NCBI GenBank assembly: GCA_021157815.1
Contig: JAGGVT010000108.1
Span: 1 to 9,686, forward strand
DNA: 9,686 nucleotides
Source of the DNA: a bacterium
GTDB taxonomy: Bacteria; JAJVIF01; JAGGVT01
Direction: 5' to 3'
The translations under genes and the position numbers were made by a program. Shown one piece after another: positions 2,100 to 8,408 of the stretch; position 1 is the first letter of the stretch; every line of letters starts with the position of its first letter. Below the pieces are notes generated by a model. It had not been told where the DNA came from, made no database searches, and worked only from the letters and a program-made list of their open reading frames with translations.

Positions 2100-2132
2100 T
2101 ACCCACTATCAAATGGAGAGATTTATATTTTA

Positions 2133-2342
2133 GGCGCTTCAATAAATTGTGTGGATTATTTGCCCCCCGTAAAAAAGGGGGCATTCCCCGATAACGGGGT
2201 ACGTCCACATGAGGCTTCAAAACAGATGTTATCAATATACTATCCTGTAACCCCTTGTTTATACTGTGTTTATTCACTTTGTTGGGACAGTCCCTTTTTT
2301 TTACTCAATCTAAACTCAACCCACACGATTTATTAAAGAGCC
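2133..2342. mobile_element. MITE-like element, 210 bp, with 8-bp target duplication
   Basis: The ends are 22-bp imperfect inverted repeats, 2133-2154 and 2321-2342, matching at 19 of 22 positions. The right end read inward starts GGCTCTTTAATAAATC and the left starts GGCGCTTCAATAAATT. The bases directly outside are the same 8-mer, ATATTTTA, at 2125-2132 and 2343-2350, as expected for a target-site duplication. No coding sequence lies inside. The interior has two hairpins, GCCCCC/GGGGGC (2162-2182) and CCCCG ATAA CGGGG (2186-2199). Near the right end is a mini-hairpin, GGGA CAG TCCC (2284-2294), followed by eight T. As I recall, ISL3-family elements have ends beginning GGCTCTT or GGTTCTT and make 8-bp duplications, so an ISL3-type transposase is the best guess for the mobiliser. 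The element fills most of the 344-bp gap between the two flanking genes. Confidence 0.82.
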
Positions 2343-2370
2343 ATATTTTAATCAGAAATGCCCTTTTTTA

Positions 2371-3354
2371 CTAATCATCGTCCTTGTCGTCATCGTCCTT
2401 ATCATCATCAATCTCCTGAACAATGTTGCCCTCTTTCACTCCGTGGCATCCCGATATGATTTTCGCCATCGATGATTTCAGCTGAATCTTTGTTATTTCA
2501 ACCTCACCGATGATATTAGCCTCACGGAAAACAATTTCACCATCTGCATTTCGGATGACATCCTCCTGAATGACCTTGAATCGCTGTCCGACCTCAAGCT
2601 CGGCACCCTCGCCAAGGTCGATAATCAGACTGTCTCCTGTGACCGCGATAATCGCGCCGGTCAGCGGAAAATGTTCCACCATTTTCTTCGCGATAGCGTC
2701 AACGGCTTTGACAGTGGCTTTACCGACCATGCTGTCGCGGAATTCGTCTGAATCAAATCTGATATGGCCAACCCAGTTATCAAAATCACTCCCGCCAAGA
2801 GCGACACCGGACTTTTTCTCGACACCCTCAGCCGATTCCGCGATTAGAGTTTCACCGGTTTTGGCATCAACAAGCCTGAAATCAATCCAGACAACAGCTT
2901 TTGATTTCTTGACACTGACATCTCCCCAACCGCCGGGAACAATACCGCCAAGTCCGCCGGAGCTTTTCTTGTGTCCAAAATTGGTTACTTTTCCCATGAG
3001 GATATAATCAACGCCCTTGATTTTGCCTTTTTCGACTTTGGTTTCCTTTTCAATATAACCAGTATCACCAAGGTCGATTTCATCCTTTAATTCATCGAAT
3101 GATTCGTGGCGCGCGATAACGTTGAATCGTCCGCTCTGGACAAGCTTTGTGATAAGCATGTCCGTAATACCGTTGCCAATGGTCGAGTTGTAGTATGTCG
3201 AAGGATTTTCGAATGTCTTGACCGAAATTCTCGGCCTTCCCTCTGTGCGAAGAGCATCGTCATCATTGCCGTTGGATGCATCATCATCAGCAAAGGCGAA
3301 TCCCGCAAGCAGAAAAATCATGCAGGTGATAATAAGTGCCAGGTTTCTTTTCAT
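2371..3354 (-). CDS. CsgG-family exported protein with FlgT-like C-terminal region, 327 aa
   Basis: Residues 1-22 are a signal peptide ending AFA before an Asp run (DDDASNGNDDD). There is no lipobox, unlike E. coli CsgG, so a soluble periplasmic or secreted product is likelier than an outer-membrane lipoprotein. Residues 41-228 match the CsgG/TolB-N style: RISVKTFEN, then GNGITDMLITKLVQSGRFNVIAR at 61-82, GVDYILMGKVTNF at 114-126, and VWIDFRLVDAKTGETL at 155-170. Residues 232-315 (GAIIAVTGDSLIIDLGEG, VGQRFKVI) resemble the FlgT C-terminal domain. A Gly-rich loop lies at 133-144. The tail, residues 316-327, is almost pure Asp with two Lys (DDDKDDDDKDDD). The ATG at 3354 has GGAGG 6 nt upstream and a strong promoter at 3434-3462. 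No curli genes are nearby, so a role in curli secretion is not implied; such proteins are common as envelope components of unknown role. Confidence 0.85.
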   Translation of the reverse strand: MKRNLALIITCMIFLLAGFAFADDDASNGNDDDALRTEGRPRISVKTFENPSTYYNSTIGNGITDMLITKLVQSGRFNVIARHESFDELKDEIDLGDTGYIEKETKVEKGKIKGVDYILMGKVTNFGHKKSSGGLGGIVPGGWGDVSVKKSKAVVWIDFRLVDAKTGETLIAESAEGVEKKSGVALGGSDFDNWVGHIRFDSDEFRDSMVGKATVKAVDAIAKKMVEHFPLTGAIIAVTGDSLIIDLGEGAELEVGQRFKVIQEDVIRNADGEIVFREANIIGEVEITKIQLKSSMAKIISGCHGVKEGNIVQEIDDDKDDDDKDDD

Positions 3355-3462: not shown

Positions 3463-3553
3463 ACAGGTTGAGTTGATAATTTCGGATTTTGAACTCATCC
3501 CGTATTGATAAATCCAAAAATTGTGATTATAAATTCGTGATTATAAATTTTTT

Positions 3554-3626
3554 GTCATTCCGGGCTTGGCCCGGAATCCATCTTAGCACCGAAATATAGT
3601 GGATTCTGAATCAAGTTCAGAATGAC
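3554..3626. repeat. Paired palindromic repeat element
   Basis: Two 27-bp units face each other across a 19-bp spacer. Unit 1 (3554-3580) folds as ATTCCGGGC, loop TTG, GCCCGGAAT. Unit 2 (3600-3626) folds as ATTCTGAA, loop TCAAG, TTCAGAAT. Unit 2 reversed matches unit 1 at 20 of 27 positions, and all seven differences are transitions that mostly keep base pairing. Outer ends are GTCATTC and GAATGAC. I remember this type (a cattccgggcttggcccggaatcc core) as a widespread bacterial intergenic repeat, without having searched. It ends 6 bp from the methyltransferase stop codon. It has no T-run on the minus strand, so it is not an intrinsic terminator, although it could stabilise the transcript's 3' end. 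Confidence 0.82.
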
Positions 3627-3632
3627 ATTATA

Positions 3633-8209: not shown

Positions 8210-8408
8210 CCCTGGGAGCGCTGGTCTCTGACCGGCACTTGAACAGACTGGCAGATACGAATTAAAATACACTAACATTTAGACTAAATTATTTTCGACT
8301 CTTTTTATAAAAGAAATATTGCGGTTAAGGCATTTGAATTGTTAATGTCAGGTTGTGTTGTTCTATTTAGCTTGTACAAGTGCCGGTCAGAGACCAGCGC
8401 TCCCAGGG
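8210..8408. repeat. Two perfect 32-bp inverted arms around a 135-bp spacer
   Basis: The left arm, 8210-8241, starts CCCTGGGAGCGCTGGTCTCT and ends ACCGGCACTTG. The right arm, 8377-8408, is its exact reverse complement. Each arm contains an AGCGCT palindrome and a short internal dyad (GGTC-TCT-GACC). The arms are GC-rich and the spacer is AT-rich. No flanking direct repeat is visible. Either this is one MITE-like foldback of 199 bp, or two copies of a short dispersed repeat inserted in opposite directions. The 'GGGAGCGC...' start is familiar to me from intergenic repeats in other bacteria, from memory only. Confidence 0.85.

Follow-up and report, generated by a model that had tools for sequence, protein, structure and literature searches.

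A gene-less 210-bp element from a sparsely sampled bacterial lineage belongs to a high-copy MITE family whose interior recurs as a separate repeat

A 210-bp stretch with no gene-like coding capacity lies between two genes in the DNA analysed here, a stretch of 9,686 bp referred to below as the window. Both neighbours are on the minus strand and encode a small lipoprotein-like product (positions 1580-2026, no Pfam match) and a CsgG-family secreted or outer-membrane protein (positions 2371-3354, PF03783, E 1.5e-34). In the first-pass annotation the stretch was described as an intact MITE-like element with an exact 8-bp target duplication and ISL3-like ends, whose insertion may have brought a transcription stop between the two genes. 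What kind of element is it, which enzyme moves it and does it matter to the genes beside it?

The element occupies positions 2133-2342 (plus strand) and matches its copies elsewhere in the genome mostly from end to end. Its borders are 22-bp terminal inverted repeats, GGCGCTTCAATAAATTGTGTGG at 2133-2154 on the plus strand and GGCTCTTTAATAAATCGTGTGG on the minus strand at 2321-2342, which were recognised from the genome-wide end pattern and from shuffles of the window. The two ends pair at 19 of 22 positions, and each is directly bordered on its outer side by the 8-mer ATATTTTA (2125-2132 and 2343-2350). Assignment of these 8-mers as the target duplication is based on the sequence, the window shuffles and a comparison of flanks. 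Ends and duplication were thus found at 2125-2350 exactly as first described. The statement that they are hard to get by chance also held, since none of 40 first-order window shuffles gave an inverted repeat of at least 19/22 at spans of 100-400 bp, with or without an 8-bp repeat. The interior proved non-coding as stated, with no gene-like ORF in the 210 bp, and an Rfam search of the window gave no match. The left subterminal arm GTAAAAAAGGGGG (2169-2181, plus strand) pairs in inverted orientation with 2290-2304, as seen in the sequence and the family alignment. A core module, GGGG...GTCCACATGAGGCTTCAAA...GGGACAGTCCC, extends over 2177-2294 (plus strand), and its right edge is formed by the GGGACAGTCCC palindrome, which together with the following T8 and AC (2284-2304, plus strand) is also the right subterminal arm.

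Comparison of the 210 bp with its own genome, a 3.2-Mb draft of 221 contigs that is 91% complete, gave at least 40 alignments at 83-100% identity, mostly full-length at 83-95%. The end pattern, with up to 3 mismatches allowed, matched 118 places in the genome, and a reversed control pattern matched 0. The family comprises at least 60 copies, namely 49 two-ended ones and more than a dozen that are truncated or located at contig ends, where many of the copies lie. Most two-ended copies are about 210 bp long, some 14 are about 192 bp and one is 105 bp; the family consensus is 211 bp. The count of 49 took in one mis-pairing by the script (L027 2794-2897), for which the true element is L151 1278-1487, a copy with the exact 8-bp repeat AGATATTT when read by eye. 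Exact 8-bp duplications were present in 22 of the 49 copies, and 30 had at most one mismatch. As a control, the left flank of one copy was paired with the right flank of another, and only 5 of 2,352 such pairs matched exactly over 8 bp. The duplications differ from copy to copy and have an A+T content of 89%. Weak ends on contigs C163, C186, C193 and C48 proved to belong to MITE copies, to a chimera or to a fragment at a contig end. Most copies are about 2-8% diverged from the consensus, and this divergence suggests that the family may be inactive today.

For an empty-site search the two flanks of each copy were joined and matched against the collected DNA. Paralogous empty sites were found for three copies (L013, L015 and L019), each with a single copy of the target. 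L013 and L015 are inserted in a different repeat, of which the members L132 and L121 are empty and read straight through, and the host sequence of L019 occurs without the MITE in L008. The single target copy at these sites means that the inserted unit was the element plus one 8-bp duplication. Copy number, copy-specific repeats and paralogous empty sites together establish the sequence at 2133-2342 as a member of a MITE family with an 8-bp target duplication, and further copies with differing repeats were present as the first-pass annotation had anticipated.

The ends of the family were absent from the other three genomes of the phylum (four examined in all), no match to the element was found in 58 other genomes compared, and searches of 84,980 genomes of other species, viral contigs, plasmids and phages, at the sensitivity of exact patterns or blastn, revealed no element bearing them. 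One 22-mer match in an alphaproteobacterium was rejected; it had no second end within 3 mismatches, and about 0.2 chance matches were expected by estimate. The end sequences were also looked for in the literature, where the one match was unrelated.

The interior of the element is a repeat in its own right. It has the form GGGGACAGTCC...GGACAGTCCCC and is found not only in the MITE but also on its own in the genome, as well as in the interior of a second MITE-like family whose ends are unrelated. The L074 sequence (C56:52399-52559) matches the MITE interior and has different outer flanks; the L074 core used as query found at least 40 places in the genome, comprising MITE copies, solo copies and members of the second family. 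The second family has the arms ACTATTGTCCGGTTAAGTT and AATTTAACCGGACAGTAGTG around the same core and was seen at L105, L114, L121, L126, L127 and L129. Several solo cores have the form GC-A6-GGGGACAGTCC...GGACAGTCCCC-T6-GC. In a tree of the cores the solo ones were the most diverse, and those of the MITE and the second family grouped mostly by family, with some mixing. Chimeras were read by eye at three loci. In L152 and L076 the left arm of the second family runs through the core into the MITE right end, and in L074 the MITE is joined at the palindrome to the right arm of the second family.

The ~210-bp and ~192-bp subfamilies are told apart in the alignments by an additional CATTCCCCGATAACGGGGTAC block, located in the window element at 2182-2202 (plus strand). 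The block is absent from the solo cores and from the second-family cores, and the ~192-bp subfamily retains GGGGACAGTCCACA as the solo copies do. From this distribution, the GC block is probably a derived feature of the ~210-bp subfamily. The 105-bp version (L058 1501-1605; C195:27258-27362) has a lone GGGGACAGTCCCC palindrome as its interior, without the spacer, and would be either a form that preceded core capture or a deletion between the two palindromes.

Some MITE ends adjoin still other sequences. At L070 4000-4290 a truncated left end continues into a palindromic repeat, GTAGCCCGG...CCGGGCTAC, and GGCTACAAT, which may belong to that same repeat, borders the MITE copies L004 and L025. 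Right ends at L079 3580-3665 and L084 1-122 are fused to one and the same sequence of yet another type, AATGTCAAG.GGGAGG...AAAACTTATACATTTAAACAGTCCCC, which may be a further nested repeat.

The window element is very probably a copy of a high-copy non-autonomous MITE, moved in trans by a DDE-type transposase and built from 22-bp ends and a captured REPIN-like core. A transposase of this type would recognise the 22-bp GGCKCTTCAATAAAYYGTGTGG ends, and its staggered cuts at AT-rich targets would give rise to the exact 8-bp duplications. The element itself would have been assembled from these ends and a core in which a spacer separates two GGGGACAGTCC palindromes in inverted orientation. The same core, present solo in the genome, would have been captured by the second MITE-like family as well.

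How the core spread can be addressed through its architecture. REPINs consist of paired inverted palindromes around a spacer (PMC3116915), and RAYT genes are flanked by their own REPs (PMC2817692). The core has this layout, with two inverted palindromes around a spacer and many dispersed copies. Nine Y1 transposase genes were found in the genome, of which L095 alone is flanked on both sides by GGGACAGTCCC, in inverted orientation. The palindrome is not beside the other eight Y1 loci. In addition, no GTAG- or CGTC-type tag was found at the palindrome foot in the core, which is flanked instead by A5-6 and T5-6, with GC outside these flanks in several solo cores. Because of the eight Y1 loci that lack the palindrome and the missing GTAG-type tag, involvement of a RAYT in the spread of the core is a moderate inference. 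Tentatively, unrelated DDE-type MITE families in this one genome could have picked up, on repeated occasions, a REPIN-like core that a RAYT spreads. A single module would then be dispersed and rearranged by two transposition systems together, and the chimeras would stem from exchange inside the core. We regard this extension as possible, at somewhat less than even chance.

Other repeats were noticed in the window. An 87-nt unit at 1-174 is present as a tandem duplicate (99% identical) and contains CCCGGCGTCCCTTCGCCGGGG; stretches of 27-29 nt from it recur several times around a Y1 transposase gene (L096). REP-like repeats at 1271-1380 and 3550-3627, one of which is an inverted pair of TCGGGTGCCGCCCATACA, match 45-49-nt and 28-35-nt stretches beside the Y1 gene in L098 at 97-100%. 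A 36-nt inverted repeat (97%) with arms 127 nt apart lies at 8210-8408, between a DUF401 gene and groEL, which are convergent; it is probably another repeat element.

Which DDE family moves the MITE was considered next. Duplications of 8 bp together with GG- ends are found in several families, including ISL3, IS6, IS1595 and IS256. The GGCTCTT end of the element presumably resembles that of the ISL3 family, and the 8-bp duplication fits ISL3, but duplication size and GG- ends also fit IS6, IS1595 and IS256. Searches of the element's own genome, within the 91% covered by the draft, were negative for transposases of ISL3 (DDE_Tnp_ISL3, PF01610), IS1595, IS256 and IS6. The DDE_Tnp_1 domain was found at four places, none of which bears the ends of the MITE; among them L130 is an intact IS5-like gene without MITE ends and L131 a fragment adjoining a MITE copy. 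A full-length IS with the 22-bp ends was not found in the fragmented draft. Single ends in the middle of contigs (L070, L074, L077, L079 and L081) were considered as candidates for long parent elements and rejected; no second end was present within the available flanks, and these loci were truncated copies, chimeras or nested repeats. A multicopy parent IS may be missing from the assembly, since this is 91% complete and split into 221 contigs, with many copies at contig ends.

The ISL3 origin proposed in the first-pass annotation accordingly found neither the transposase nor the full-length ISL3-type IS that it called for. It could be upheld if the ISL3 transposase has since been lost or is missing from a draft in which repeats are under-assembled. 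Members of the family do combine an 8-bp duplication with imperfect ends of about 20 bp (ISAeme19 has 19-bp IRs and 8-bp DRs; PMC12554700), and another genome from this class (G001) carries a degraded ISL3 transposase, although no MITE-type ends occur near that degraded copy. With no DDE_Tnp_ISL3 match in the element's own genome, an ISL3 origin is rather unlikely.

It was also weighed whether the element was recruited to, or serves in, transcription termination or RNA processing between the neighbouring genes. The stop codon of the CsgG-family gene is 20 bp from the target duplication, and the gap separating the element from the lipoprotein-like gene contains a promoter-like site (2099-2072). 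The whole element folds strongly, with z -4.2 on the plus strand and z -7.4 on the minus strand, the latter being the direction in which the neighbours are transcribed. However, the strong fold is mainly due to the long terminal repeats, together with the GC blocks, and the terminator scan found nothing terminator-like inside the element, including the palindrome and T8 at 2284-2304. The hairpin plus T8 reported earlier was overstated, as GGGACAGTCCC-T8 (2284-2302) pairs over only about 3-4 bp. At L149 3783-3972 a MITE copy of about 190 bp is located between rnfD and rnfG, adjoining the rnfD stop, in an otherwise intact rnf operon. This copy has the same orientation, which argues against strong termination, but it lacks the extra GC block. 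The suggested transcription stop was therefore not sustained, and recruitment as a terminator or processing site is improbable. MITE copies avoid genes: by crude ORF calls, 4 of 38 testable copies lay within an ORF, whereas 77% of positions drawn at random from their flanks did. For the neighbouring genes the effect of the element is most likely small or neutral, and an important one is probably absent.

Spread of the whole repeat family as a REPIN or BIME by a single-strand Y1 transposase (RAYT) alone, without any DDE enzyme, would suit the REPIN-like core and the nine Y1 genes, one of them bordered by the same palindrome, but is largely refuted for the whole element. The 22-bp ends are directly bordered by exact, copy-specific 8-bp duplications, and the empty sites lack all 210 bp and one duplication; both are signatures of DDE enzymes, and Y1 enzymes are not known to make target duplications. 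Spread by a RAYT may still apply to the core alone.

A DDE-moved MITE with a captured core resembles several known systems in part. Like the bacterial elements MITEAba12 (PMC6382973), MITEPsy1 and MITEPsy2 (PMC3189936), the family is short and gene-less and has terminal inverted repeats and target duplications, with movement in trans inferred or shown. In contrast to these elements, its parent IS was not found, and its interior is a separate repeat common to another MITE-like family. ISL3-family IS such as ISAeme19 (PMC12554700) are alike in their 8-bp duplications and in having ends that are imperfect and about 20 bp long, whereas an ISL3 transposase was not found in the present genome. The inverted palindrome doublet and spacer of the core, and one RAYT gene flanked by the palindrome in inverted orientation, recall REPINs and BIMEs with their RAYTs (PMC3116915, PMC2817692). 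This likeness is limited to the core, which differs in lacking the GTAG-type foot, in its conserved spacer sequence and in riding in DDE-type MITEs. TIMEs, the mosaic miniature elements derived from Tn3 (PMC4133298), are also non-autonomous, in some cases mosaic, and directed to AT-rich targets, but have Tn3-type ends and 5-6-bp duplications. What began as a guess from a single sequence has become a measured transposon family in a sparsely sampled lineage, with four genomes of its phylum compared here. If the RAYT link is true, it would provide a clean case of cargo common to two unrelated transposition systems. The elements combined here are of known kinds; the most interesting and new feature is the exchangeable core common to two MITE-like families, by which short repeats of differing origin can become modules of each other.
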